A stretch of DNA of 64,000 nt from positions 2,485,789 through 2,549,788 of the forward strand of contig JAJEKV010000074.1 of assembly GCA_021234155.1 (NCBI GenBank). Direction: 5' to 3'. This document shows, piece after piece, positions 1-61,844 of the stretch. The translations under genes and the position numbers were made by a program. Position 1 is the stretch's first letter, and every line of letters starts with the position of its first letter. The stretch comes from Isoetes taiwanensis (lineage: Eukaryota; Streptophyta; Lycopodiopsida; Isoetales; Isoetaceae). The notes beneath the pieces were generated by a model. It was given only the letters and a program-made list of their open reading frames with translations. It was not told the DNA's origin and searched no databases.

Positions 1-3000
1 CCCTTTCTTAGTTATTTAGCTCTTTGGAATATTCCTACCAATCGAATTGATGTCATCGTAACAAGTTGGCCGGACTTGTTAGATTACTTCTTTTCTTTCT
101 GTTGGATTATTCTTTGAGGTACTAGATTTATACATGGTTAACAATTATCCTAGTAATGATTCCTTCTTAGCGAGGAGATCAATCTCACCAAGTGGTTTCA
201 CACGCTGGATGTCCGCTAACAATCGCGGTATAATTATAGTTACTCCTATGCATTTCCTTCCCAATCCTTGACGCTTAGCTCAATATTGGGGCAATCCTTT
301 TAGTTTAATATCCGAAATGCCTTCTAATCCTAATATGGATGTTACCGCCCATACATTAACCTACTAGGCCCCATGGCCTTAGATGCTTGAGCTTGCTAGA
401 AGCTCATCCACTCGCTGCCCCGCTTGAAGTAGCAAGGTAACGTTTCTTCCCAGTCGCCGATACTTCAGGCCTTTGACGTGGCTCCCTTGATGTCAGAGGT
501 TGACTTTGTTCGTTAGAAGCCTCTCATTGCCGGCGGTGGTTTTGATGGTGTAGTTGATCACTTGAAATCTTCCATGCCGCTCTTCAAAAGCCCCAAGATG
601 GCGCTGAAAAAGATCTTTCATCTTGAACTTTTTGTCTTGGCAGCCTAAAAGACGACTCAGATCCGATATTGTTTCTTCGACTCCATCGATGTCTCATACG
701 CCGAAGTCCTCTTTGTCGCTATCGTGTTGCCTCAAGAGTGTTGAGGATGTTGATTGCTTCACCCCCGCGAACTTGCATGACATCTCTTCCTTTGATCTGT
801 TACGCTATGGGAGGGAAGGAATAACAAGGAAACTATACATGCAAAACATATAGCTTACATAGTTACAATTACTACTAGAGCTATTAGGTCTCCCTTGTGC
901 CTCCCTTCAAGTTGCACACCTACCCTTGGCAATGTCAATGTGTTCCTCCGCAATGGTGTTGATGATCTATATCCTTCTATTTGTACGCCACCATACCCCG
1001 GTAACTTGTTGATATGCTTGGGCCCTCCGATGTTTGTCTGGCTATGGCACAACACGCTTTGCATCACATTCCAACTAAAGGTGTGCTTGTCGCTGATGCT
1101 TCGACATTTCACCGCTTCCCGATCCCCGTTTCTGCGGTAATTGTTCTTCCTTCATGATACTTGAGCTATTTGAGGCGCCTTTGAGGTCGCGGCGCGATTC
1201 CTTTGGTTATACTCCTCCGAGTTTTTCTCTTCTAGCTTGTTCTTTGAATCGCCCATCCTTGGTTCATCAAGTTGCATGCAAGTCCGTGCAAGTCATCGGC
1301 TCGCCTCATTTAGTTGTTTTCTCCATCGAAGCCCAAACTTCCTTTGTTTGATCCCTCGATCACATGGTTTGACGTTATCACATTCCACAGCTTATGCCGT
1401 TTCTTTGTCTTGAGGTACCTTCCGGTGGCTTTGATTTGTGCTCGCCGGGCTTTGATCCTCCCCGCTATTCTAGGGAGCTCGTGGAAGAAGTCGGTTGCTA
1501 GCACTTCTCCGCCTTTCAGTTCCCTCGACTTTTGTCTCTATGCATGTCGCCTCTCCGGCAAGTAAGGCTTCATGGCTCTTCTCCCCGGCCGGGCGCTATG
1601 TTGTTCCGATGATGGATCCTTATCTCGCAAGCTTTGACCTTTGAGTTGAAGAAGTATCCGCTTTAGATATACTTTTGTCGCTGAATAGCCCGGCTATTAT
1701 CTTGAACTCTTTTGTCAAGGTGCTTCAGCTTGTTATCCTTGTCGCATAGGTGTCAATGCTTCTACCTTGGGCGCTTGACGGCCACATGTCGGAGATATGG
1801 TCGGCTTCTTCTTCTAATTATCGGTAGGAGTACCGACTTTAAGCCATCACCTAGTTGTTGGGGCATATCTCCTCGTCGCCTGCCTTTCGTAAGTGCATCT
1901 CCATCTAATACACGCGGTCATAGCACATCCCCTATATTACCACAAGTTGGAATTATGGTTGCCGAGATGTTGCCTTCTTAGTTGGCTCATTGATGCTCTG
2001 GGTGTTCCTCCTTCCATTGTTGAGGCCACTCATGTCATAAGTTCGCCAAGTGTTGCCGCCGCCTACTAGAGGTAGTGTTGCGCCCCGACGATGTCCCGGT
2101 GCGTCGATGATCTTGACATGACCGTGTTGTTCTTGTTCTCGACATTGCGTGGACGAGCCGCCTTCTACTTCGTGGCACTTCCGGAAGTGTTTGGAGTCGG
2201 CGGTTTGCTTGGCCTCTGGTCGTTTCTCCCCTCGTGATTTTTGCTCTTCCATTTTGATCTTGGGCTATAGTTGTGCTTCTATGCTTCCTTTTTGGTAGTC
2301 GGCGGAAGGAGCTTCCCGATCTAAGCTTAAACCGCAGAAAACATGACTCTAAACTCATGTTTCTCCATCAGACCGTGGAGCACCCGAGATATACAATAGA
2401 CATATAATGTATTTACATTGGGATTTTAATTCATCGACTTTTTCAAAACAACTAATTAAGATCTACTTAATTGTTTATACTCCTTTAGGGTTTCCCTCCT
2501 CCTATCGTGATTTTGACCCTTTTGGTTTTGCCGCATCTTCTTCGCTCGTTGACTCCGTGATTCCTTGAGATGTCGCTACCATTGTTGAGCTTCATGTCTG
2601 ATCCGAAAGCTCGCCACGCCTGGGCCATGAAAGGGTGTTCGCCGATGTGATCCCTTGAGAAAGATGCTCCTCCTAATGTGTATATTCGCTGTGAGGAATG
2701 CGGCGGATCGCCAAACGCCCCTTTACATGCGGTGTCGCTGCGGTGGTTGCCATGTGTGGTGCTTTGATCGCTTTAAGTAGGGATCACCGGTTGCTGGCTG
2801 GGGCATTCTTGAATGTCTTCAAGCTCTAAGATCATGGCTCTGTAGGGCGTGCATTGTCATTCCTCCGCAGTTGAATTTCCGAGTGCACCTCGCTGTTTGG
2901 GCTTTGCTTCATCTCGAGGTGCCTCTCCCCGTGCCTAGAAGTGTGGTAATCTCTATTGTCCCTACCATGGCTCCTTCTGGTCGCCTTTGCATGATTTGTA

Positions 3001-3900
3001 TCTGCCGGGCTAGGTCGCCTCCTCCGGCCCTTTTGGGTCCTATCCATTCAACCTCGCGACTCCTTTGGACGAGTAAGGTCGCCCTTCCTTTGGTTTCTAG
3101 GTGTTCCTTGGGTCCCGAATTCCTTTTGTTGAGCGAAAAATATTCTCCTCCTTGATCTTGCCCCTAGTGCTGATATAGGCCTTCGAAGCCCGGAGATGTT
3201 CCCCGATATGCGCCTCCTCCCTCGTGGTCTCCTCGCTGGTGCAAGGAGCCGGAAGCTCAACTTGGTCAGCCTTAGGTGCTTTGTGGTTGCCTAGCTTGGT
3301 CGCCTTTTGTTGGCGTTGTTCGACATTCGCTTTGAGCCGCCGGGCCGCAAGTCGAGGTGGTCTTCTCTCCGCTTTATACGCCTCGTGGTTGCCATGACTT
3401 CTCCCTCGACGGAAGATTATGCCTTCTCGACCCCTAGCTCGCGGATGCTAACACCAAGATCGCGTCTAACGGTTCCCGCGACCGCATTTTGTTGCCTTGC
3501 ATTCTTCCATTTGAAACTCGTGGGCGCCGAAGTTGGTGAAGGCCGAGATCCTCTTTTCGGATGTGACCTCGCCGTGATAGCCTCGGAGGTTGACACCTAG
3601 AAAATTCTTGATGCCGTTGGTTACCAAATATTCTTCCCATTTGATGAAGATTGATGATAGGCCCGGTGGTGTCCCCGCTCTACTGCTTGTCTGCTGAGGT
3701 GTTTGTCATTGTGCTTCCTCTCTTGGCCGCTTTTCCTGCCCTCTCCTTATCTCTGCCTTGTACATCGGCCGGGACCTTGATGTCTTCAAGAAGTTGCGCC
3801 TCTAGCTCTTCTCTCCGTGGCTCGCCCCCAGACTTCGAAAAGCAACGCCAGATTTCCTAGAGTCTAAGGTCTACTTGAAGGGCTCTCCTACAACATTCTC
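1..3900 (-). mobile_element. Degraded LTR-retrotransposon internal region (probable gag/pol), runs off left edge
   Basis: No intact gene is visible here. On the minus strand there are short, clean protein-like stretches that keep changing frame. At about 3640-3500 one reads IKWEEYLVTNGIKNFLGV and onward, and at about 3140-2830 another contains GDLARQIQIMQRRPEGAM. I do not recognise either as a named domain. The region lies directly downstream, on the minus strand, of an LTR-like sequence that starts at 7582, so a corrupted gag/pol coding region is the simplest reading. A stretch at about 1110-990 with spaced Cys/His residues might be an integrase zinc region, but this is weak. The frame breaks resemble the base-level corruption seen in the duplicated units. 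I found no reverse transcriptase or integrase catalytic motif that I would defend. Confidence 0.35.
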
Positions 3901-6900
3901 GGGCTATAAGCAAGCAAGGTGGCTCGAAAGCAAAGATATCGAGACATATCTATAATCTACAAGTCTATGAATATTAGGACGGTGGTATGGCATGACATGA
4001 GGATTGTTTTGCAAGACCTCCATGATGTTTGAGGCATACTCTAAGGTCCTAGCAAAGTTGGTTTAGGGGAGTCCAACCCCACACATGGAGCTGCTTGGGC
4101 AGCTCTAGACTCTAGCTCCTTTCTAGGTACCCCGGCAATAGGGAGTGTCAATGTATGCTATATAAGTCAAACCCCATTAGAAGGACAATGCAATTAGGTC
4201 AAGGTTTATGCCTTTGGCATGAGCAGAGGTGATGTAAATCCCACAGCTTGACTTGGGTTGCTATGCCGAGGTCTAGATGACTATAACAAAGGGGTGTTCT
4301 TGGGCACTTCTATCTAGGGAGTAAGGTATCAGCTTCGAGCCGAGAGCAATACTTAAGTAGCTACTAATGGGGTAGGCTTTATCTACAAACAAACTACGCT
4401 TTGGAAGAACAATTCAAGGGTTTGGGCAATTTTGGTCAATTTGAGCTAGGGTTTGACATTTCTAGCCTAATTTGAGGTCATAAATGGATTCTAGGCTATC
4501 TAATGGTCCTATTGCAACAATTTTCAGCATTTGAGAGCTCAGAGCTCAAGTTATGGAGGTTCAAAGTTTGAGGTTCACAAAACTAAAGTTTAGTTCGCCT
4601 CAAAACTAACTTTTGTTTTATGCGACAAAGGGGGCGAGCTCATCGAGACATCAGCCTCATTTCGATCAAAGGTGTCTAATTTGGGTAAACTAATGGTGTA
4701 AGGGTGATGGGCTCATCAAATTAGGGCGTAATCTAACTTTTGTTTTTACTTGGTCAATTTGGAGCTGCAATTTTGGTCAAGTTTATGAGGTTCACAAATC
4801 ATTTGCTGTTTGGCCGCTCAAAACTAACTTTTTTTTTTTGCACCAGCGAGAAATGTGAGATATCACACTTTTGGTCCGAGAGTATCCTATTTTACTAAAA
4901 TACAAACTACTACTTGCTAACTCGTCCTAATTAAGCAAGATTTGACACATAAACTACTCAAAATTATCATGTATTAACAAAATTATTGATTATTTACAAC
5001 ATATCTAATCGGGATCTCCCTTTAATTAAACTAGCTAATTACATGCCTTCCCTCATGAGGGTTACCGCATTTCGCATGAACAACAAGCAGCCGCTGAGTC
5101 TTCAAAATGTTGGACCGCCTTCCGCTTTGCCGCTTTTGAGCCTTGGCCTCCCGCCGCCTGCTCGCTCCTCCTCTTCTTGTTTCCTTCTACTTTTGCCTCC
5201 GGCCGCTTTCGCTTTGTCGAAAGTCGAGCCGGTTCCGTTTGGTGCGCATCATGTCGACGGAGTCCCGGTGTCTATCGAGATGCTGTCTCTATCTAGCTTA
5301 AGGGCCTTGGTTCTAAATCTAAGGCTTAGCCATTAATATTATCTAACATTATTAAAGCTTAAATCTAATTAAGAATTATAATTCAAACACAAACGATGCC
5401 CGCCCTCAGTGGTTGGCACGGGGGTTTGGGGGTTCAACCCCTGCGGGGGAGGTTCACCCCGCCACCGCTGGAATTTTTAAGATGAGGTTCAAAGAGATTG
5501 AAAAACTAGACTAATCTAGCTAGATCCTAGGCTAAGATTCAATTACCAAGTTACTTTTTAAATTTATAACTTTTCAAGCCGTTTTCATCAATGTCTCACG
5601 CCTTTACTTCGCGTCAGTCGCGAAAAACTAAAGTTTAGTTATTGAACCAGCGCGAGCCGCGGAGACCACCTTTACCCGCTCAACTTTTTAGTTTTATTAA
5701 GTTCCACCACCTAACTGTTGGAGACCACCTTTACCCCGCTCATTCTTTTTAGTTTTATTAAGTTCCACCACCTAACTGCTAATATTAAATTCCAATCCAC
5801 TTAACCTGCTACTAGCTTAGCATAAACCAATCCACTTAATGCTACTAGCTTAGCATAAACTACAAAATGAGAAAAAAAATTTCCCACTTTCCCGAGGTTC
5901 GAGGATCCTATCAAGTTAGTACTACGGGAGCATGGGCTGCTTTGCTCTTGGTCTCCAAGAACATTGCTCGATACCACCGCGGACGCCCCTACTCATATAC
6001 GGTGCACTCACCGTGATACAAACAGAGTTCATCCCCCATACCGCCCATGCTAATATAGGGCTCCTCCACGACACCGCAGAACCTTGAAGAGTTCCAGGGG
6101 AAGAATGAAGGGGTCCTTTACCCCCGCCTCCCTCGTGGCCTACCTAGTCGCTGAAGCGAAAACATACATGTCAAGAGGGGTACATACATCAACATCATAT
6201 GACCACCACGGCGATGGTCCGCCACATATCCCAGATAGACAAGGATCAAGACATCACATAGGGAATCCTACCCAAGGCTCGCACTCAAAGGGATGACCGA
6301 CTCATTGGGTCTCCGTGAGTTCATTGCATGTAATTCATGGCAATGGATTTACCGCATAAGAACATGGCATAGGGTTGTCCACTCCATCCGCCTCTCTCCA
6401 GGCAATACCCTTTGCGTGAGTAGGCAAAAGTGTCTGACCTGACCGTAGCCCTCCCGGATGCATAGCCAGAAGGGCTATTCCGGGTCATCATCCCAGTTCC
6501 GATGGGGTGTAGGGATCACTCCTCCAGAGATCTACATGCTGACTCAAGGTGACTAGAGGGCCACCGCCTCAGATTCGATCAACCCACCGGAAAGTCATGA
6601 ACACCACTTCACTTGTCGAGCCCATGCCTTACCCACACTCAGTGGTAAGCCATTAGACCTAGTCACAATGATCCCCTAAGAGGCCTTTACACACCGCAGG
6701 GATCGCTCAAGAGTCAACACCTAACCTCCTTCTAGCCTACCGCCCCCTTCACCCACAAACTGTGTGTGGTTCTTGCACAAGTCTAATCTATGGTGTGCTA
6801 GAGAGGCTAATCTAGAGCATCTACTACCAAGCTTGAAGTCTCTACCCCCTTCCCAATACAAGGAGTTCACAGAGATACATCATCCATATATACATCACGT

Positions 6901-7582
6901 AAGAACTAAAGAACATAGATCTAATCTATATCATAGAGTTAGGTTCTTTAGTTAGAGTCTGGTATCTACCATCTAGAGATCTAGATAGTTGTGCAAAGGC
7001 GCATTTAATAGGCTAAACCTATCGATACAATGACCGGAAAACGGTTTAGACCATTAAATCGACTACATACCGGGATCCATGAGTTGCTCCTCCCCGACCC
7101 GAAGTTCAACCATCCCACCTAACTGCTTCGAATCAAGGGAAACTAATGGTGCCATTCTCAGACTGAACTGGGAGGCGGTTTTGACTCATAGAGCAGCCAA
7201 AACAGAGCCTAAAACCCTAGGGACGAAAAATGGCAAGTTAGGGTTTCTACTTAAATAGGCAAGGGTTGGGTTAGGGTTTCCACTATCCCTTTAGGCATGT
7301 GGGATACTGGAAATGGGCCCACTTGCCTTTAATGGCTAGGTGGCCAAATGTGCCTACATGGAAATGTGTGCACCTAAATGTGCCCACATGGAAATGTGTG
7401 CACCTTAATAAATGTGCATGTGCACATTAATAAGAAATGCACATACCTAGCAAGTTGCCCCCTAGGGCTACTCATTACTGTTACACGCCTACAGACACGC
7501 CGGGCTTGAGATGCAGTAATACGCGATTTAGACAAAGACAAGATAACGCCCCGACCGTGATAATCGTGGTTGGAACGTCACA
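3900..7582 (-). mobile_element. LTR and leader region of a probable Ty3-gypsy element, copy A
   Basis: Read on the minus strand, the segment begins at 7582 with TGTGACG, a common start of plant gypsy LTRs. About 330 bp further in comes a TATA-like TATTTAAG (7257-7250) followed by an AAACCCTAA-rich stretch, as expected for an LTR promoter and transcript start. The presumed gag lies further along the minus strand below 3900. The LTR 3' end and primer-binding site were not found, so LTR and leader are not separated. Local direct repeats occur at about 5665-5790 (a unit of about 70 bp containing agttttattaagttccacc) and at about 7345-7405 (aaatgtgtgcacc units). No gene is seen. The gypsy assignment is inference from the TGTGACG start and layout. 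Confidence 0.45.
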
Positions 7583-9517
7583 AAGCCCCAAAGAAATTAA
7601 GCTTTCTATGCACAGAGTATGAGGAGCTATTAAATATAAGTGAACTTACTTGTTAAGTGAACACCTGACTCGAATTTCTATTGTCTTCAAATGCAGCCAC
7701 AAAAACCTCTCTGTTTCTCAAACACAGAGGTTTGGAAATGATACATGGTAATAGAATTAAGCCACAACAATATAACTTGTTCAAACTTGTTCATAGAGCC
7801 AACATTTTATTTGAATGCTTTAATGCATGAGCTTTGCTATGAGCATTCTAAAATGGGCACCACAATACCCTTGCCCTCAAATTTTGCAATGTGCACAATA
7901 CACCTTATTTTCTTTTTCCTCAAATAATTAATTTGTACGGTCATTCCTATAGAACCAACTATTAACCATCAGACATGCATTGTACGCATGTAAAAGAGAA
8001 AGAAAGGGCAAATAGAATTATGTGGCTCACAAAAGTTTTTTTATACTCTGCATAGTCTTGACACAGAATAGATGAAAATCCTTCATCTTACATTTCTAAA
8101 TCAGGAAATGCCTGGCTTCTACAATTTGGGCATGAAAATGGCTTCTATAACTTGGGCACAAGGGTTGATTCTTCATTTTGTCAGTAGAATTTTATTGTTG
8201 CCAGTCTTACTTTGAAATCATAGTATAACAAGCCCAAATTCGTATCTTGCAATTAGCCTATCTGCTTGCTTTCGTCTACAGATCTAGGAACACTTAATGT
8301 GCAGAATTCTTTGCAATTTATAGACCATGGGTTCCTGCCCCTTTTGAGAAAAGTTTTTTGGCTTGTTCCATGTGCCTGTGGTGTTCTAGGACTCCGAGTC
8401 TCGTATGAACAATCATCTTCTAGGAACAAGTATCTAATTCCCCCATGAAAGGCCATATTTATCTTGTTTTAGGAACAAGTATTTCAGTGCCCTACTTCAA
8501 AGGTATTGCATGTTCTTCTTCTATGGCATCTAATCGTCCTCGAATCTACCGGGCCGATGCCGATAGGATCCATTGCACTCAAAACATTTCCACCGATGAT
8601 GGGAGATCATGTAGCTATCCCGCCCAACCTCCTATGAATCGTTGGGATAAGTGTGATGCTAGTTGGAAGCACATTACATGGGAGATTTTGACTATAAAAC
8701 AAAACTACTATGTATGTCTTGTGTACAACCTCAAGATTTGTGCCTCAAAGATCTTGTCTCCATGTCACCTTGTAACCTGGCCCAGATCACACATCTTTGT
8801 CTCCATGTTAGCCCCCAAGAACCCGTCCCGATCATCATATGTTTACAGAGACAATGTAATGGAAATTTAACTATTATTTATTCTAGGTTTAGCAACCCCT
8901 GCAATTTGAATCCAATCTAGGTTTAAAGACGCAACAAAATCAAGAATCAACCCTTGTGCCTAAGTTATAGAAGCCATTTTCATGCCCAAATTGTAGAAGC
9001 TGTGCATTTCCGATAGAAATGTAAGATGAAGGATTTTCATCTATTCCGCGGTCAAGACTATGCGTAGTATAAAAAACTTTTGTGAACCACATAATTCTAT
9101 TTGCCCTGTTTTTTTTCTTTTTACATGATGATAATGCATGTCCGATGGTTAATAGTTGGTTCTATAGGAATGACCGTATTAAATTAATTATTTGAGGAAA
9201 AGAAAATAAGGTGTATTGTGCACATTGCAAAATTTGAGGGCAAATTTTAGAATGCTCATAGCAAAGCTCATGCATTAAAGCATTCAAATAAAATGTTGGC
9301 TCTATGAACAAGTTTGAACAAGTTATATTGTTGTGGCTTAATTCTATTACCATGTATCATTTTCAAACCTCCGTGGTTTGAGAAACAGAGAGGTTTTGTG
9401 GCTGCATTTGAAGACAATACAAATTGAGTGTGTTCACTTAACAAGTAAGTTCACTTATATTTAATAGCCCTCATACTGCGGTTTGAATGCATAGAAAACT
9501 TAATTTCTTTGGGGCTT
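7583..9517. mobile_element. Fold-back element with about 600-bp inverted arms, copy A
   Basis: The left arm (about 7583-8185) is the reverse complement of the right arm (about 8935-9517). The outer ends share aagccccaaagaaattaa. The inner ends share a tract reading cttgggcacaagggttgatt on the left. Arm identity is high except at small corrupted patches, for example gacacagaatag on the left against ccgcggtcaagac on the right. The spacer of about 740 bp has no recognisable protein. Long terminal arms suit a non-autonomous Mutator-like or fold-back transposon. No target-site duplication was found, partly because the left end abuts the LTR element at 7582, so the class is open. Confidence 0.75.
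8445..8870 (+). other. Open frame of 141 codons in the fold-back spacer, probably not a gene
   Basis: The frame is open for 141 codons in copy A. In copy B (31100-31447) the same DNA is broken and shifted, and only about 110 codons survive. Codon content shows no domain, signal peptide or membrane segment that I recognise, and part of the frame is a short tandem duplication. I regard it as chance or a relic of whatever the element captured. Confidence 0.15.
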
Positions 9518-53237: not shown

Positions 53238-53799
53238 TTTTTTTTTGTTGATTTTATGGAAATGAACCTGATATTCAAACATACCAATTGATTTGATTGA
53301 CCTTGGAATTGCAAGTTTGTATTTATCCTACAGGTGTTGGCTTTGCCCAAAATAAAAACCTTTTCGACATTGCACATCTTGCTTAGAAATACTTCTTAGA
53401 TACAGATTTTCTTGTTCCTAATGTTAGAATTGCAAAAGATATTGGTCACACATTCCATAGTATCTCCATAGGGTATAAAATCACTCGTGGGGTTGAAAAA
53501 GTAGTGTCCGGACGTCTGCTTGCTTTGCTTTGCTTTTGCTTTATCGAATTGCTTTGCTCGTTCTTCTCAGCACACAGCGAACTGTGAATTCCCCCCAAAC
53601 TCGATCACTCCTACGGATCGATGACATGGCTGTCCGATTATTGGGGAATCAGTTACGGTTGGCTTTGGCGGGAGGAATGATGGAGTGTAATTGCGAAATT
53701 GAAGGAGGCAGGTTGGCGGGAACTGTCCTCTCTTGCCATTCTCAGAATTTGGTTACGGTGGAGAATCAATGATTGGAGTTTCTCATATTCATAATTTGA

Positions 53800-56166
53800 A
53801 TGGATGAAGATGAGAAGAGACTGATTTTTCGTGAAATTGATGCTGCCAGAAAGAGGGAATCAAGGAAACGCAAAAGGGAATTGATGGAAGCGCCTGCTAA
53901 TTCCAAAGAATTAAGCCTCAAAGCAGAGAAGAATTCAGGAGATTTCAAAGGATATGCATGATTATTTTGAGGATCTGACAAAACATGCCAATGCTTTAGA
54001 TAAGGCTGCTATTGTGGACAGATTTGTAAGAAAGATAAAACCAAATGTACCTTTACAAGTAAGCGTTGCAGACAAAAGAGAGACAAAGGTTATGCAAAAA
54101 GTGATTGCTAATGTGAAGGAAACTATGCAGCTGCACAAACGAACCAGAAAGATTGACATTCTGGCAGCAAAAAGGTCAACTTTACAAATGGTTACATCCA
54201 CAGAGAATAAACTTAATCATTCTCGCAAAGAGCCGGCTGCTTGAAGTGCCTAGAAAATCTATTTGTGCAGCCTATAGAAGAAGAGTAATGGCAGAAAGGG
54301 AATCAGGTCCCTGGTCTATGTTTTTGAGGAAGAAAAGGTCTGATTCTGTCAGTGATGAAGTGAAAAAGGTTGTCTGCAGTTTCTGGACTGAAAACACAAG
54401 AGTTTCTCCATACAAAAAACATGTGAGGAAGTTTAAGACAGAAAATGGCAATAAAGTTGACCATCCAATCCATTTGCTTGAGGTCTCCCAGGTATTTATA
54501 TCTGGAATGTTTCTGGTCAGCTGTTAATTTGTAGTGTTTGATAAAACTTTTCATGTTGAAGTTGAACAATTTATGCTTCACATGTTTTATGTATGAATTT
54601 GCTATCTGCATTGTTTTGATTCCCTATTGCTTTATAAATTTGCATTACGCAATGTCTCAGTATCTTTGATTAATTACTTATTATGATTGATTTGCTTCAT
54701 TGTTTCAGTACTTTCATGATTTTGCTTTATGCATTACAAAATGAATTTTACATGTTGTCTGCAGCTCCAGTTCTATATGGCTTTCAAGCAACAATATCCA
54801 CATATCAACATTGCACAACAAACATTTGAGAGGCTGAAGCCTTCATTTGTTAGAAGACTTCATGAGAGGGAAACTTGCTGCTGTCAGTATCACATCCATT
54901 TGGAATTTGTTCTTCAAACACCGAATGAATAAGAACAGACCCTAGAGGTGTTCATGAAAATTGTTCCTGCAATTGCAGTGTGTGTGGAGAAGGAGATGAA
55001 TGCAAAGCTAAATTGATGACTTACAAGTCTACTAGTGAGTTGTGGAGGGAACTTGTATGTGAAAAGCAAGATCCCTTAGAAGAATGGCACAAGCATTCCT
55101 GTCTGATGGTTGCTTGTAAATCTTGTGGTTTGAAAAGGTACATTTAACATTCATGTATATCTATTTTGGAAATGAGCTAACGTTGTAGCTTTCAGATTGC
55201 CAATCTGTCCAAAGGAAAAGACAATGAAAGACATTTCTGTTGAGTGGAAACAGTTTGAGAAGGTATATTAATTTGTTTTAGTGTTATTTACTTTTTCTGA
55301 AACTTGTTTAGGACCTAACATCACCAAATTGTCTGCTGTATTGCAGCAAGAGCCTGGTAATTTGAAGGAGAGTTCAATTCGTAAGAGGGGAGGAAAAAAA
55401 CCAACTAAAGTCACAAGATTAGCATACAAGTCTGCTCCAGTACAAGAGTTTATTCAGTATGCCAACAAGACACTTGTGCAATTTGTTCCACATAATTACA
55501 CGGCACATTGGCAGGCAAAGCAATTTAAGCAATGCTTAGCCAACTTTCCAAAGAATACTATTGTATCAGTAATTGATTTTGCTGAGAACTATAGCCTCAA
55601 AATTCAGAAGGAAGTACAATCATGCCATTGGCATACCGACCAAATTACTATTCTTGTTCACATTACCTATAGACATCCTACAGAAAAGGAAGAGGAAGAA
55701 TTTAGGAACACAGTCGCATCTTGTTCAGATCGAGAAACAAGTTCAGGTACAGATCGAAGAATAATTAAGGAGACACATTTTTACATTTCTGATTGCAAGG
55801 AGCATTCAACTGAGTTTGTCAACCATCGCTTGAAAGTCCATGCACGTTGGCTTTGAAACAAATGAATATAGAGTACGGCAACCATGTTTTTGGAGTGATG
55901 GTTGCACATCTCAATTCAAAGGTGCCAGACCCTTCTGGTACATAGGTAGAAATTTTGTGAACAATCCTACTCTGGAATATTTATGGTGTTTTTTTGCAAG
56001 TTCTCATGGTAAAGGAGAACATGATGGAGTCGGAGCTGTTTTGAAATTAATTCTAGCAAAGGAGCAACTGAAGTATGATTCTGGAAAGCCGCAATGTGCT
56101 AAGGATCTTTGTGGAATTCCTAAAATGGTACATTGAAAACCATCCTTGTGCCAATGAAAAAAAGAG
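53800..56166 (+). pseudogene. DDE-type transposase, N-terminal and catalytic part, frame-shifted
   Basis: Likely start at 53800 (MDEDEKRLIFREIDAARKR). Exons as read: 53800-54491, 54765-55137, 55196-55262 and 55347-56166, all with GT-AG borders. Features in order: a basic N-terminus; a Cys/His-rich middle (ETCCCQYH, then CSCNCSVCGEGDEC, then HKHSCLMVACKSCG); and the catalytic core. Candidate catalytic acids are Asp in VIDFAENYS (codon 55575), Asp in FWSDGCTSQFKGARPF (55897) and Glu in SSHGKGEHDGVGA (56017). It would cut and join the element ends in the nucleus. Damage: frameshifts near 53945, 54220, 55845 and 56110, and a stop at 54930. Related proteins with an HGKG-x-x-DG-x-G motif occur in animals, from memory. 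The copy is inactive as read unless the breaks are sequencing errors. Confidence 0.8.
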
Positions 56167-56890
56167 GTATTTTCCGGTAGGCTGGCCTAGTGTTTGCTTT
56201 GATGGAATTGCTTTGATGCTTTGCTTTTTTGCTTTTTGCTTTGACTAACTTTGCTTTGAATTGGCCTTGCATATGCTTTCTCGATTCATTAAATTTGCTC
56301 TGCATTTGCTTTCTGCATTTATCTTGGCTTTCATTCAATTCCGTGGTTGTCTCATTACTTTTGATTTTACGCTTTGATTATCTTTGCTCACGATGGAATT
56401 GCTTTGATGCTTTTGCTTTTTGCTTTTGCTTTTGCTTTTGCTTTGATTAATGCTTTGACTAACTTTGCTTTGAATTGGCTTTGCGGTTTGCTTTCTACGC
56501 ATTCATTAAATTTGCTCTGCATTTGCTTTACGCATTTTATCTTGGCTTTCATTCAATTCCGTTGGTTGTCTCATTACTTTTGATTTACGCTTTGATTATC
56601 TTTGCTCGATGGAATTGCTTTGATGCTTTTGCTTTTTGCTTTTGCTTTTTGCTTTTGCTTTGATTAATGCTTTGACTAACTTTGCTTTGAATTGGCTTTG
56701 CATTTGCTTTTTCGCATTCATTAAATTTGCTCTCGCATTTGCTTTTCTGCATTTATGTTGGCTTTCATTCAATTCAGTGGATGTCTCATTACTTTTGATT
56801 TTACGCTTTGATTATCTTTGCTAACAATTTGCTGCTCTTGCATTTGCTTTTCGAATTTGCTTTGCTTTGCTTTTGCATTAACTTGCTTTG
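56167..56890 (+). repeat. Transposase intron made of a three-copy 190-216-bp array rich in TTTGCTTT
   Basis: Units begin gatggaattgctttgatgct at 56201, 56392 and 56608. They end near 56823 and are about 191, 216 and 216 bp long. Each unit contains many GCTTTG/TTTGCTTT words and shared tracts such as tggctttcattcaattc. The GT donor after aaaaaaagag (56166) and an AG before tcaatgctttccgtg (56891) make this an intron between catalytic and C-terminal transposase exons. The same word is concentrated just inside both transposon ends. Confidence 0.75.
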
Positions 56891-57560
56891 AGTCAATGCT
56901 TTCCGTGTACTTTTGGAATATTGAAGCTAAGGACATAGATAAGTCCTGAAAAGAAGGAATGGAAAACTTTGAATGGGAGCTCAAAGTTACATAGCATTAG
57001 GGCACTTGATAGGAAGGATCCAACAAAAGTGAGTACCGGATGCCTTGCTTGTTTTGCCAAGCATGTTTTCATGGAGATTGGGATAATTGCATTAACAAGA
57101 GAAGGATAGGAGGCTGGAAAGAAGGTGTATTAAAACCAAAAGAAGTACAACCAAAGTGAATGCGAGAAGACAAATTATCCAATGAGGAGGAGGAAGAAGA
57201 AGATGATGATGATGAGGGTGAGCTTGATTACCTCGGTGACATCTTAGAAGTTGGGGATAACTTTGTTTGCACTGCGAGAAAAAATAATGATGAGGGTGTC
57301 GACTTTTACTTACCGCGGTGTCTTGAGACAAAGCAAACATTGCTGGATTCTTATGTTGATGAGTGGGGAATGTATACAATGTTGGAGAGGTTATAGTATC
57401 GAAGCCACTACTATCAGCAATTAGACACTCTAACTTTTCAATTGTTTGGTGGACAAGCCGGTGGCTTCAATTTACTGACCACTTGGTAAGGCATGTTAAG
57501 TTTGACATGAATGATATTGGTGGCAACATGTACATGTTAGGAGAAGAGACCCCGCCGAAA
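56891..57560 (+). pseudogene. Transposase C-terminal part, frame-shifted
   Basis: The region continues with YFWNIEAKDIDKS. After a stop and shift near 56947 it reads WKTLNGSSKLHSIRALDRKD, then a Cys-rich stretch, CLACF...CFHGDWDNC, that needs one frame change near 57056. A stop at 57157 is followed in frame by an acidic run (EEEEEEDDDDEGEL, about 57180-57225) and VGDNFVCTARKNNDEGVDFY. Another shift near 57367 leads to YNVGEVIVSK and RHVKFDMN. The order (linker, Cys motif, acidic stretch, beta-rich C-terminal domain) matches the end of the same transposase family as I recall it. The true 3' end is uncertain, and an open frame continues to 57861. Confidence 0.65.
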
Positions 57561-57685
57561 ATCATGTCATCTTTACCGCTTCGGGGAATGAGTTCAATGC
57601 TCTCGATTTGGGTTTCAGTTCACAAGTGCATAGTACAAAACATTGACATTCATATTGATATTGTTACAACAGTTTACAATAGAGT

Positions 57686-57845
57686 GCACAATGATGTGCA
57701 TTCAAAATCGCAAACTGGGGGAAAAAATTTATGTATGCCGGTATATTCACATCTAACATTACATTGCACAATGATGTGCATTCAAAATGTGGCAACCGGG
57801 AAGAAAATTTTATGGTTGCCAAATGTATTTTTCACATCTTACACT
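57686..57845 (+). repeat. Local tandem duplication of about 80 bp
   Basis: The stretch beginning gcacaatgatgtgcattcaa at about 57688 is repeated from about 57765, with several substitutions. It lies in the gap between the convergent transposase and FCP1-like frames and may contain their 3' ends. No gene is seen from 57861 to 58012. Confidence 0.7.
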
Positions 57846-58012
57846 TTTCTTGACATTCCTTAACATCCATTGCCTCACAACCGTCTTCCGTGAACCCGCA
57901 AGAGCGTAACTCCGCTTAAGGTAAGAAGATATGGCAAGCCAAACAAATCAAGCAAATCAAGCAAAAAAATAAATTGCTTACCGAAGTTCCATCATGGCAA
58001 CCGCCTCACGTT

Positions 58013-58692
58013 TCACAGAATAGCCCATCTTGGATTCTCCCGCACATGCTTGGAACACAAATCCAAAATATCAAAGTCTTCTTGTTTGACAATTTCTGGG
58101 GCAAGATGTTCTTTCACAAATTTTGTAGGCTCAGGACTTTCAGCCCAACCAAACAATACATCCTTCATCTTTTCAAACCATTCTGTGCCCTCATCAAACT
58201 GAAATGAGCTAACTATTAAAGAATGGTACACCGGTGAAAAAAAAAAAGATTTATACAGAGAATCATCCACCAACAAGACATTCTTCATTTCAGGATATGC
58301 TTCAATGACATAAGAAAGTGGCTTCAAATAGACCGGCTTGTCTGGATTGGCTGGGTGTGGATAAGGCAATTTCAAACATTGTGCTCCTTCCCAAATGAAC
58401 TTGAACTTAATAAGATAATCTGCGAGGCAACATCTGCTGCCGGGCACTCAATGATGTTGTAGCGGTTCATCTTGGACCAAATAGCAATTTCAAAATGTTC
58501 TAGGGCCCGGTCCATGAAATTATGCAAACCTGGTGCGCAAACCCGAAGACTTTGTTGGTTGTGTACGGTTTCTTGATTTGCGGTATTGGTGTTCTCAGGT
58601 TTGTCATGCTTATGCCAACTCTTCATAAGCACACCATTCAAATCAAGGACCAACAGTTTGTCTTTGTGCCTCCCTACAAACAAGAGATACAT
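58013..58692 (-). pseudogene. FCP1-homology (NLI-interacting-factor-like) phosphatase domain, one frameshift
   Basis: The minus-strand sequence begins at an acceptor (tttgtag) near 58673 and reads GRHKDKLLVLDLNGVLMKSW, with the HAD/FCP1 first motif as DLNGV. The usual second Asp is Asn, as I recall for plant relatives. EHFEIAIWSKMNRYNI follows (motif around the WS residues). A one-base shift near 58420 is needed before YLIKFKFIWEGAQC. Then come KPVYLKPLSYVIEAYPEMKN and VLLVDDSLYK, the Asp-Asp motif, and a C-terminal part ending near 58013. Such domains dephosphorylate Ser/Thr of nuclear proteins, although the DLNG variant may be inactive. It lies inside the transposon, convergent with the transposase. 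Confidence 0.75.
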
Positions 58693-58964
58693 TTTAAAAA
58701 CACTTTAGACACAAACTAAGATATGACATTGTCAACTATGAAAAGATTACAGATTCACATATTCAATGAAAACATTTTATTTTAATGAAAAGTTTACTGA
58801 TTCTAATATTTAGAAAAGATTTTATTTTAACGTAAATCTTACAAATTGAAAATATGACAATGTCAAATACTGAGTGGTTTACGGGTTCAAAGTTTAGCCC
58901 TTCCCATTATAGGCATCTAATATTCTTTCTATTGGAGTCGTTTGTCACCTTTTGTAACTTGCAC

Positions 58965-59482
58965 CTTCTCAAAGAACTACTTTGGGAATAGGTTTGATTG
59001 CTTTCTTCTTTTTGTTGGCCCGCCAAAGACGCTTCCTTTGAATTGTTTGTATTCTTTGTTGCATCCTCTTGAACTTCTCTTCCATCCTCCCCGACGGCTT
59101 CTTTGTCTTGCTCATCCACCGCGGTAATTACGTTGTGGCATCTGCAATTGTGACCACCAATTTGTCCGACTCCTGCTGATCCACAATCGTGGAGTTGTGC
59201 ACTTCCGCGGCATTCGATGTGAATATCCGAGTTGGAGTTACGGGATCGGGAAGAATAGTCTGGCGAGGGTTCAAGGCTAGTTTCCTTGATATTGATTGTA
59301 GCTCTTCTCAACCTGCTCTTAATTCCCAAAGAAGCTCCTTCCCTCGAAGAACTTGGAATATTTTCTAAAATACCTTCATATGCACGGTCAGAATCACCAG
59401 CATCTTCATTCACATCAAAAAATTCACCAAATTCATCTAAATCCACATAGTCATCATGTTTCCTTTTTGTTGGTAACTTTTC
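58965..59482 (-). pseudogene. Acidic, low-complexity exon with a basic patch, upstream of the FCP1 domain
   Basis: The acceptor ttatttgcag precedes EKLPTKRKHDDYVDLDEFGE. The exon is rich in Asp, Glu, Ser and Asn, with TKRKHDD a possible nuclear signal. A Cys/His patch (ECRGSAQLHDCGSAGVG, then HNCRC) follows, and near the end comes SQSSSLRR before a possible donor at 58964. Joining this donor to the FCP1 acceptor at 58673 is attractive by order and composition but is not in phase as read, so a single gene is inference. Function unknown. An AT-rich intron-like gap (58693-58906) separates it from the FCP1 block. Confidence 0.45.
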
Positions 59483-59636
59483 CTGCAAATAACATGACCA
59501 AAACTTTTCAACAAAAGCAATTTTCACAAATAAAGCAAAGCAAATAAATAATACTTACTTTCTTAGATGATTCTTACGTTTCTTTGTTCTTCTTTTTCTT
59601 CTCCTTCATTTGCATTGGTCTCTAAGCCAAGTTCTT

Positions 59637-60330
59637 CAAAAGAATTTCATTGGGACATCCATAGAACAATCCGGGCATTTTTTATTCTCTACAAGAAGCG
59701 GTGCAAATTAAATGATAAGCATGTTGGCATGGTAGCACCGCACTAATCTTGTAGTCATCTTGGAAAGCTAATCCACATGCAGAACATGGTATTTCATAAC
59801 ACAATGGCAACCTGCTTTGCAATAACTTGAACTGAATACAGGAGGCATTTACACTACTCAAGTTATAGCAATTAGCCCTGTAATTCTTCCATTTGAGCAG
59901 GTCCCTTTCTAGCACTCCATGTAATGCTTCCAATTCATTCTTCTTCTCAACTTGATGATCATCCACCTTTTCAATAAGGCTCTCTAATTTCCTGCAATAG
60001 AATTTCTCCTGCATCAAGTCCTGCATCAAGTCCTCAATTCTTTTCTTATCAGAATCAGACTTTTCTACTTTGGATTCCAAAAAATTGATCTCAGCCTGCA
60101 ACCTGCTTATGTCTTCTCTGCTTGCTTCGATCCTGGCAATATCTCTCTCATTCACATGTCTGTTTAGGGTGATCTTGCTTGCAATGTCTGCCAGATCTTT
60201 CTTGCACAATTCAAATTCACCCTCCAACCTATTCACTTCTTCATCCAAGACCCTAACATTAAACATTAAGCTACCTCTGTTTAGCAAAGGAACAAAGACT
60301 TGCCCGAGAGTAAACACATGCATTACTTGG
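59637..60330 (-). pseudogene. Coiled-coil and RING-H2-like protein inside the transposon, one frameshift
   Basis: On the minus strand, residues about 25-150 form a heptad-rich coiled coil (VLDEEVNRLEGEFELCKKDL, LQAEINFLESKVEKSDSDKK, LESLIEKVDDHQVEKKNEL). A zinc motif follows: CSAC, 15 residues on PCQHAYHLIC, then after a one-base shift CPDC (59677-59666). The spacing C-x2-C, C-x1-H-x2-H-x2-C, C-x2-C is that of RING-H2 ubiquitin ligases. The frame break falls between HLIC and CPDC. Downstream on the same strand are the acidic exon and the FCP1 domain, and upstream is an N-terminal piece at 60748-60380. It could be an exon of one large gene. Confidence 0.6.
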
Positions 60331-60375
60331 CTTCAATGGTGTGGGATTTGGTGTGGTTCTTCTTTACTTGCCTGA

Positions 60376-60748
60376 GAGGTCAAGCGCCGTGGAATGTTTT
60401 GGTTCGAGCTTAACTAGCTTCCTTGGGTACATCAACTTGTTCTTTAAATGAAACCCGGTTTATCTTGTGTTCGTCCCGTTAAGAGCTGCCGACTACAATT
60501 CTCCCAAGTAAATGCAAAGGCAAATTTCTTCCCCGAGCTCATTGTTCGCCGCACCATGAGGATAAAGCTCGAGATAAGAAAATCTAGCAGTTCTTTTTAA
60601 ATGAGGCTTCACATAAAATTTCTTAATTTTACCGTCGGTGAAGCCATGATTCCGAGATCGATTCCCAATCCTCGTCGAGAATTTGATCCTCCAACCATTT
60701 AATCCATTTCTGCGGTACCATTCCTTCGTCAGAAAGCTTCATCGCCAT
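60376..60748 (-). pseudogene. N-terminal exon(s) of the minus-strand transposon gene, unrecognised
   Basis: The first ATG at 60748, about 130 bp inside the right terminus, starts MAMKLSDEGMVPQKWIKWLE and runs to SESWLHRR before a stop. A one-base shift gives DGKIKKFYVKPHLKRTARFS, then LELYPHGAANNELGEE. A later frame gives MYPRKLVKLEPKHSTALDLS and a possible donor near 60370. Tryptophan-rich and basic, it recalls small DNA- or chromatin-binding modules, but I do not recognise it. Its position suggests that transcription starts in or near the transposon end. Confidence 0.4.
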
Positions 60749-61010
60749 CGCCAGAGGTAGTTATGGCGCCAAAATTCTGATTCCGGAGCTGACCGAAATG
60801 TGAACCGAAAAAGTTTGCTTTTGCTTTGCTTTTTGCTTTGCTTTTTCGCGTTTTTTTGTACCCGACTAGTGATTTTATACCCCATAACGAATGCCGATTC
60901 TTAAAATGATCTTTCCTTCTTCTAGTTTTTTCTTTCAAAATGTTAAAACGGAAACGAATTTATAATGAATTACAAAAAAACAATGTTAAAGAATATCAAA
61001 GCAATCTAAA

Positions 61011-61466
61011 TTATAAGGAAACGGATTCATGGGCAGCATGATCTAGAAACGCAGGGAACTCCACATTTCCGGTGCAATGTCCATGAGGAAGAACTGGACA
61101 GTCTATAAGTGTAGAGGCATCTTTATCAACACAGATGTAGATCTCATAAAGCTGAGGAGTTCTTTCTTCATCTTTGTTACATTGAATATCAACAAAATGC
61201 CCCACAACATCCTCTAAAACCGCAACAATCCTGTGTACACTATAATGCCTACCATCTGGCCTGATACCTGCATTCTCAAGTGGCCATAAAAGATCAAGCT
61301 TTTCGCGCAGCCTAAGTGTGGCCTCAAAGTATAAATGTTGGTCTAGAAGGTTCCCAGCACAAGTTCCATGCTTATCCCATTCATGAGTCCAAAATTCTTG
61401 GCCATCATTACTAGGGCAATCAAAAGAACTCCAATATCTAGCTAACTCTGGCTTTAGATCCTCTAT
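61011..61466 (-). CDS. RNase T2 (S-like ribonuclease), 3' exon
   Basis: The acceptor ttatgatgcag precedes IEDLKPELARYWSSFDCPSN. The second conserved catalytic block, FWTHEWDKHGTC, is complete, with its His, Glu and Lys-His residues. GIRPDGRHYSVHRIVAVLED, a Cys-containing strand, YEIYICVDKDASTLIDCPVL and a final NVEFPAF follow to the stop at 61011. RNase T2 enzymes cleave single-stranded RNA through a 2',3'-cyclic phosphate and act in vacuole or apoplast. Length and cysteine pattern match plant S-like RNases. The partner exon with the first active-site block is at 61845-61984. A stretch of about 120 bp without a gene separates this stop from the transposon end at 60882. Confidence 0.85.
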   Translation of the reverse strand: MEDLKPELARYWSSFDCPSNDGQEFWTHEWDKHGTCAGNLLDQHLYFEATLRLREKLDLLWPLENAGIRPDGRHYSVHRIVAVLEDVVGHFVDIQCNKDEERTPQLYEIYICVDKDASTLIDCPVLPHGHCTGNVEFPAFLDHAAHESVSL

Positions 61467-61844
61467 CTGCATCATAAACAGAATTTCAATACAACAAAAA
61501 TAAATAATAGTTCAAATTACTAATTTCCTGCTGTAAAAACAAAGATACCCTCAAAAACAAAGACAGAGTATTTTCATGAAAGTAGAGAGTATTAGAAACA
61601 AAAACATTTAGGAGAACAGCTCGTTTCAGAAATAAACAGAGATATTGTTCATACCTTCATATTGATGTTTGAGATACTTATCTGCTCTAATTACAAATGT
61701 CTTGAGTGGTGGTGGGAGACAATGAAGGAAGCTCCAAAACAGAAAATTTTGATGTGAAAGAGAGTGCTAGTTGAATATAGAATCTGAAAGAGGGGCAGAG
61801 GATTTTAACGGAAAAAACATGTACCAGATCAAAAAATATTATAC

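Follow-up and report, generated by a model that had tools for sequence, protein, structure and literature searches.

Two-gene DNA transposons are already known, and several of those described in the parts of the literature drawn upon here resemble the element treated below. Mutator-like elements (MULEs) that carry mudrB or an antisense plant-mobile-domain (PMD) gene are likewise plant DNA transposons with a second gene, in several groups antisense to the transposase (PMC6446971); TransibSU and the RAG1-RAG2 transposons likewise unite a transposase and an accessory protein in one inverted-repeat element (PMC4411706); Kolobok lineages share 4-bp duplications, purine ends and an accessory gene sometimes placed on the other strand, such as RecQ on the complementary strand (PMC9587614); and VANDAL21, with its silencing suppressor VANC21, carries an element-encoded accessory factor, the kind of role proposed here (PMC8616336). 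Here we describe an element in a 64,000-nucleotide stretch of Isoetes taiwanensis DNA (contig JAJEKV010000074.1, positions 2,485,789 to 2,549,788; the whole stretch is called the window below). This transposon covers 7,412 bp at window positions 53471-60882 and has terminal inverted repeats flanked by a 4-bp duplication, CATA; on its minus strand an N-terminal region, a coiled coil, a RING-H2 pattern, an acidic linker and an FCP1-like domain follow one another, convergent with a putative transposase gene. The initial annotation had read the minus-strand evidence at 57990-60748 in this order and placed it within a transposon, and there it lies, enclosed by inverted repeats reaching to 53471 and 60882 with CATA on both sides. 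These minus-strand exons make up the second gene in an old group of DNA transposons with two genes, and it has the look of a component that the element has long kept in working use, not of a fragment captured from the host.

Carriage of the gene by the element is seen within the window's own family. A search of the I. taiwanensis assembly (1,658,258,908 bases in 1,110 contigs) with the coiled-coil/RING exon (query 59682-60332) gave 73 candidates, of which 40 were scored places with 93-100% identity, the window among them. At 36 of the 40 a listed right inverted repeat lies 526-541 bases outside the exon, facing in; this comparison used 67 of the 100 repeats listed out of 175, and the other four places had no match among these. 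The inverted-repeat pattern itself, at up to three mismatches, gave those 175 genome matches against 0 for the reversed control. Fourteen further family copies share 93.6-96.4% identity with the window copy, and identical 4-bp duplications flank 11 of the 15 copies (window included), L003, L008, L013 and L014 being those without them. L014 lacks 3,069 bases, L001 857 and L013 543. Absence of the minus-strand exons from other copies, which the initial annotation had set as a refutation, is not what is found: they are present there, although in L014 part of the FCP1 exon has gone along with the bulk of the transposase, and in L013 a piece of the linker. Terminal inverted repeats together with a target-site duplication, the hallmark of an inverted-repeat DNA transposon, are found in the window family, in L018 and in L020. 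Among the matches to the inverted-repeat pattern there is also a related variant, GGGGTGTAAAATCGCTAGTGGGG, with many genome occurrences of identical letters, which may mark a non-autonomous or sister family.

In the window copy the reading frames of both the transposase gene and the RING/FCP1 gene are broken, as seen by tblastn with proteins of other lineages. The majority consensus of 15 window-family copies is still frame-broken, and for this reason diverged lineages were used for the analysis. False frameshifts can occur in Nanopore-based, Illumina-polished assemblies, and the breaks in the window may reflect either decay or assembly error, the window copy being probably a decayed relic. 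The assembly used here was built from Nanopore reads and polished with Illumina data (PMC8566536). The lineages compared are A (L017, L020, L023, L024, L025), B (L019, L021, L026), C (L018, L027, L028), D (the window's family) and E (L015, L016).

Across these lineages the arrangement of the two genes is conserved. Positions were compared with L017 queries for 150 listed transposase matches, 150 RING matches and 101 of 150 matches to the FCP1-like domain (Pfam family NIF; up to 84.8 bits), that is, about 150 listed of roughly 2,000-7,000 candidates, a sample in which absence is weak evidence. Among the matches listed, transposase and RING exon lay within 8 kb of each other in 69 pairs, where 0.22 would be expected by chance; all 69 were on opposite strands, with the RING exon downstream in 67. 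The 21 RING-NIF pairs were all on the same strand, with NIF downstream in 20, and the 14 transposase-NIF pairs all stood on opposite strands with NIF downstream. The comparison for lineage C (L018 type) took the first 47 transposase matches and the first 92 RING matches out of 150 listed for each, some of the 92 being pieces of one copy: a RING exon lay within 12 kb of 30 of the 47, always opposite and downstream and in 27 cases within 4.5 kb, and 31 of the 92 were accompanied by one of the 47. Three further transposase matches adjoin lineage-E-type NIF matches, again on opposite strands. The full two-gene layout is present in lineages A-D, and a partial one in lineage E; in L018, for instance, the element spans 6.96 kb (949-7904) and is flanked by ATGA duplications. 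That the RING/FCP1 gene travels with the element, as the initial annotation had supposed, is borne out by the 40 places in the window family and by the other lineages, in convergent orientation to the transposase, and the gene behaves as an accessory gene of the element. In a rough first look, genome-wide candidates numbered 6,892 (transposase core), 2,087 (RING exon) and 3,263 (NIF), the last figure including host genes. At 3.38 kb, L020 (778-4160) has inverted repeats and AATA duplications but holds the RING-FCP1 gene only, without transposase, its FCP1 exon interrupted by one stop. L022 was considered as a further transposon copy and rejected, since its FCP1-type gene reads DLDHTLL and no transposase accompanies it.

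The second gene is under purifying selection, both between and within lineages. Ratios of nonsynonymous to synonymous divergence (dN/dS), obtained pairwise by the Nei-Gojobori method at intermediate divergence, were for the RING exon 0.43 (L020-L024, dS 0.60), 0.30 (L019-L021, dS 0.96), 0.29 (L021-L026, dS 1.07) and 0.23 (L020-L025, dS 1.34), and for the FCP1 part 0.26 (L017-L024, dS 0.86) and 0.15 (L017-L025, dS 1.44). Less clear RING exon pairs are L018-L028 (0.65, dS 0.26) and L018-L026 (0.39, dS 0.99), L026 also containing part of a neighbouring element. For the transposase, 20 of 30 unsaturated pairs gave 0.06-0.29 and the other ten 0.44-0.84, these ten being close pairs or, we think, pairs with frame-shifted stretches; close pairs of all three parts (dS below 0.15) ranged from 0.14 to 1.17, and 13 of the 15 reached at least 0.4, the pattern expected once copies have inserted. 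The parts have also diverged together, the same lineages being recovered in the transposase, RING and FCP1 trees. Spearman correlations of the distance matrices were 0.80 for transposase-RING (14 copies), 0.50 for transposase-FCP1 (15) and 0.69 for RING-FCP1 (16), values reached by 0, 5 and 0 of 2000 permutations, respectively, although near-identical copies among the taxa favour these figures.

A RING-H2 finger follows the pattern C-x2-C-x(9-39)-C-x(1-3)-H-x(2-3)-H-x2-C-x(4-48)-C-x2-C, and the RING of the second gene fits it by eye. Its eight Cys/His ligands read CxxC-x15-CxHxxHxxC-x8-CxxC in most rows of lineages A-C, also by eye; in the window family the spacer before the last CxxC is x9 and that CxxC lies in another frame, in L024 a Tyr replaces the first His, and some decayed copies lack parts of the motif.

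For the FCP1-like domain, the window ORF (58372-58704) scores 33 bits against NIF (PF03031), and L017, L016 and L019 score 71, 74 and 45, all over the curated cut-off of 21.8 bits. The DxDx(T/V) phosphatase signature is absent, the second catalytic Asp being replaced by Asn: motif I reads DxNG in all 13 of the 17 extracted transposon copies that include it, several of these belonging to one family, and DxNxV in the window. L018, L026 and L027 also read DxNG, by a script that required the N and in which exceptions were uncountable, L028 being left out. The first Asp, the Ser of motif II, the Lys and the DD motif seem by eye to be retained, and the nearest solved structures by sequence are UBLCP1 (E 0.0015) and CTDNEP1 (E 0.003). 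Twenty other NIF loci sampled from the genome comprise 12 with DxDx, which we take to be host genes, five of a repeated class with DxNG and three unreadable ones. Another multi-copy gene with a DxNG FCP1-like domain occurs at L049 (G000:C179:239600-247400) and L050 (G000:C1102:2061400-2069400), with no transposase of the present family near either. The ORFs beside it resemble ParB-like and methyltransferase-like proteins and, at L049, also an En/Spm-like one, as judged by eye.

The plus-strand gene is a putative transposase with the motifs VIDFAENY, FWSDGC and SHGKGEHDG; conserved D, D and E/D residues stand in VIDFAENY, WSDGC and HGKGEHDG and would by inference fit a DDE/D enzyme. A Sleeping Beauty-type helix-turn-helix (HTH) model matches it at E 0.025, below the cut-off, and no relative was found in the viral contigs or prokaryote genomes searched.

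The initial annotation had left a choice between one fused multi-domain gene and several captured fragments; the splice models favour a single fused, spliced gene over separate fragments. A same-phase acceptor, chosen by eye from the listed AGs, precedes the FCP1 exon in 9 of 10 loci, and a script using consensus AG/GT sites could join the RING exon to the FCP1 motif by an open in-phase path in 7 of the 10. In six of these seven loci the path passes through one or two mini-exons; the best path in L027, which has none, is less convincing. In a frame control the true FCP1 frame gave 31 open paths (7 loci), against 5 for the two wrong frames (one at each of 5 loci). An earlier, stricter script gave open paths only in L019, its out-of-phase models being open in 1 of 7 cases for L018, 0 of 44 for L020 and 1 of 3 for L019. 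In the window a simpler intron (58674-58948) would by eye link the RING-linker part and FCP1 in phase, and a donor of similar position and phase was found by script in other lineages; a small additional intron boundary may lie at the start of the acidic linker. Retention of the first intron would bring the RING frame of lineages A-C to a stop behind a conserved peptide (AIMDALRGNSNISLRALIHK or a relative of it), for example at L018:2860-2939, which suggests two isoforms, RING-only and RING-FCP1, made by intron retention or removal. The same peptide and stop could instead close a separate RING protein adjoining an independent FCP1-like one, and an ATG stands shortly upstream of motif I in some FCP1 exons; the splice models, with wrong-frame paths at half of the loci and the out-of-phase ones in L018 and L019, are no proof against this. 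Two adjoining genes are nevertheless unlikely in view of the shared acceptor phase and the seven open paths, and in L019 and L025 no ATG lies between acceptor and motif I.

What such a gene would do for the element can be proposed from its domains. Nucleophilic attack in CTDSP1 is made by the first Asp with help from the second (PMC7281111), and fungal Tim50 keeps the FCP1 fold and has no phosphatase activity (PMC8346121). Because Asn replaces the second Asp, and because Tim50 keeps the fold without the activity, a binding role for the FCP1-like domain is favoured by analogy, and phosphatase activity appears doubtful. The explanation that we prefer, tentatively and as a whole somewhat short of probable, is that an old conserved second gene encodes a trans-acting accessory factor combining a RING with a reader of phosphorylated proteins: the RING part would recruit a ubiquitin-loading enzyme, the coiled coil would multimerise the protein, the FCP1 fold with its Asp-to-Asn change would bind, more than dephosphorylate, a phosphorylated host protein (a silencing factor or the tail of RNA polymerase II), and intron retention or removal would yield the RING-only or the RING-FCP1 form, the outcome being maintained element expression through escape from silencing, or assistance to the transposase or to transposition. 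A bolder version, which we regard as very unlikely, gives the element a ubiquitin ligase of its own with an FCP1-derived pseudophosphatase that would recognise phosphorylated RNA polymerase II, or a phosphorylated silencing factor, at the element and thereby mark the host's silencing machinery for removal, with the retained intron switching between a free RING and one fused to the reader.

Other roles fit part of the same evidence. The accessory protein might be a structural cofactor of the transposase, serving complex assembly, target choice or repair, with ubiquitin transfer and phospho-binding mattering little; the gene co-diverges with the transposase, and there are precedents in transposons encoding RAG1-like and RAG2-like proteins (PMC4411706) and in mudrB, which is apparently needed for integration (PMC6446971). 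This role is rather improbable given the specific conservation of the RING ligands and FCP1 motifs, and L020 keeps the second gene only, which a cofactor provided in trans would equally allow. A phosphatase active in spite of DxN, acting on the RNA polymerase II tail to promote element transcription, would agree with NIF scores of 71 and 74 bits, with the residues that seem by eye to be kept and with purifying selection; it is decidedly unlikely when the residue that assists the attack in CTDSP1 (PMC7281111) is Asn in all 13 copies with motif I, and the same residue leaves a straightforward phosphatase, as the RING/phosphatase protein of the initial annotation might be read, without support. 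Host fragments carried as passengers, without function for the element, could be read from the broken frames of the window copy and the neutral decay of its family, yet the same gene occurs in several lineages with saturated synonymous sites, it co-diverges with the transposase, and its motif I is unlike that of the 12 sampled DxDx loci; this possibility is largely refuted and can hardly be correct. A recent capture from a host FCP1 gene, also considered in the initial annotation, is rejected because the gene is common to lineages with saturated synonymous sites, and co-divergence and the DxDx reading of 12 of the 20 other NIF loci tell against it as well.

Several observations weigh against the preferred explanation. 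Pfam RING models stay below their cut-offs (in the window, zf-RING_11 at 16.3 against 27 bits and zf-RING_2 at 15.1 against 27.3; zf-RING_2 at 13.2-15.1 across four proteins), the transposase matches no Pfam family over the cut-off, DDE models included, and its best Protein Data Bank (PDB) sequence match, at E 0.78, is not convincing. In lineage C, 17 of the 47 listed transposase matches lack a listed RING exon within 12 kb, and a listed transposase is lacking for 61 of the 92 listed RING matches, though the listings are cut short and copies also decay. In lineage E, no transposase was detected in the 3.1 kb past the RING and FCP1 of L015, and no RING exon beside the FCP1 and transposase of L016. 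The splice script with consensus AG/GT sites found no open path in L021, which has no such donor, or in L025 and L026. Finally, the 15 window-family copies show no third-position excess, selection being seen only at larger divergence: variable sites at codon positions 1/2/3 number 135/134/142 in the transposase, 56/61/63 in the RING exon and 32/36/32 in FCP1, and these copies decay neutrally.

Features of the transposon in the window, with the basis of each assignment.
Feature	Window position	Strand	Basis or remark
Target-site duplication CATA, left	53467-53470		Read directly from sequence
Left terminal inverted repeat	53471-53500	+	Begins GGGTATAAAATCACT
Putative transposase gene, spliced, frames broken	53818-57578	+	tblastn with lineage B and C proteins
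216-bp tandem repeat, about 3 copies	56237-56891		Between transposase-coding stretches
FCP1-like (NIF) exon	58013-58673	-	DLNGVL (DxNxV), IWS, VLLVDDS; frame break about 58410-58447
Predicted intron, linker/FCP1 exon	58674-58948	-	Donor AAAG/GTGACA, acceptor TTGTAG/GG (slash marks the boundary), both phase 1; by eye
Acidic/charged linker	58949-59554	-	ORF 58907-59554; same place as charged linker of lineages A-C
Coiled-coil/RING exon	59666-60332	-	ORF list and alignment with other lineages
RING-H2 pattern CSAC..CQHAYHLIC..CPDC	59666-59786	-	Frame break precedes last CxxC; conserved across lineages
Coiled-coil region	59800-60332	-	Bounds by eye; aligns with corresponding region of other lineages
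Conserved N-terminal region, unknown fold	about 60463-60760	-	Matches to other lineages' sequences, at about 60463-60739; bounds approximate
Right terminal inverted repeat	60853-60882	-	Outer end 60882
Target-site duplication CATA, right	60883-60886		Read directly from sequence

Just beyond the right end of the element, a Ribonuclease T2 family exon lies at window 61011-61511 on the minus strand (123 bits).

Set beside the known systems, the element differs from each in a definite way. In MULEs the second gene is PMD or mudrB and the duplications are of 9-10 bp in the groups shown, against 4 bp here, and the one MULE listed with a C3HC4 ring finger has it in the transposase column (PMC6446971). 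TransibSU makes 5-bp duplications and has no RING, and no FCP1 domain is mentioned in the parts of that paper drawn upon here; a RING finger is present in RAG1 and some Chapaevs, where it sits in the transposase relative, whereas the present one sits in the accessory protein, and the same 2015 paper states that RING in other transposable elements was not known (PMC4411706). Kolobok duplicates TTAA (PMC9587614), which is found in none of the 13 duplications read here (11 window-family copies, L018 and L020), and Kolobok membership is rejected; a 4-bp duplication alone is insufficient to assign a superfamily (Sola, Academ, Ginger and others). For VANC21 a hypomethylating effect is published (PMC8616336), and the present gene, whose role is proposed from its domains, is likened to it by role alone. 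The FCP1, SCP, UBLCP1 and CTDNEP1 phosphatases and Tim50 belong to the same Pfam family as the present domain, which departs from them in reading DxNxV instead of DxDx(T/V), in being linked to a RING and in being encoded by a transposon. No conserved accessory gene of transposons that joins a RING to an altered FCP1 domain was found in the searches made of open-licence papers. Second genes as such being familiar in DNA transposons, the apparently new part here is a RING-FCP1 accessory gene with an altered active site, a concrete and testable candidate for the means by which a high-copy plant transposon group may act on the ubiquitin or transcription machinery of its host.

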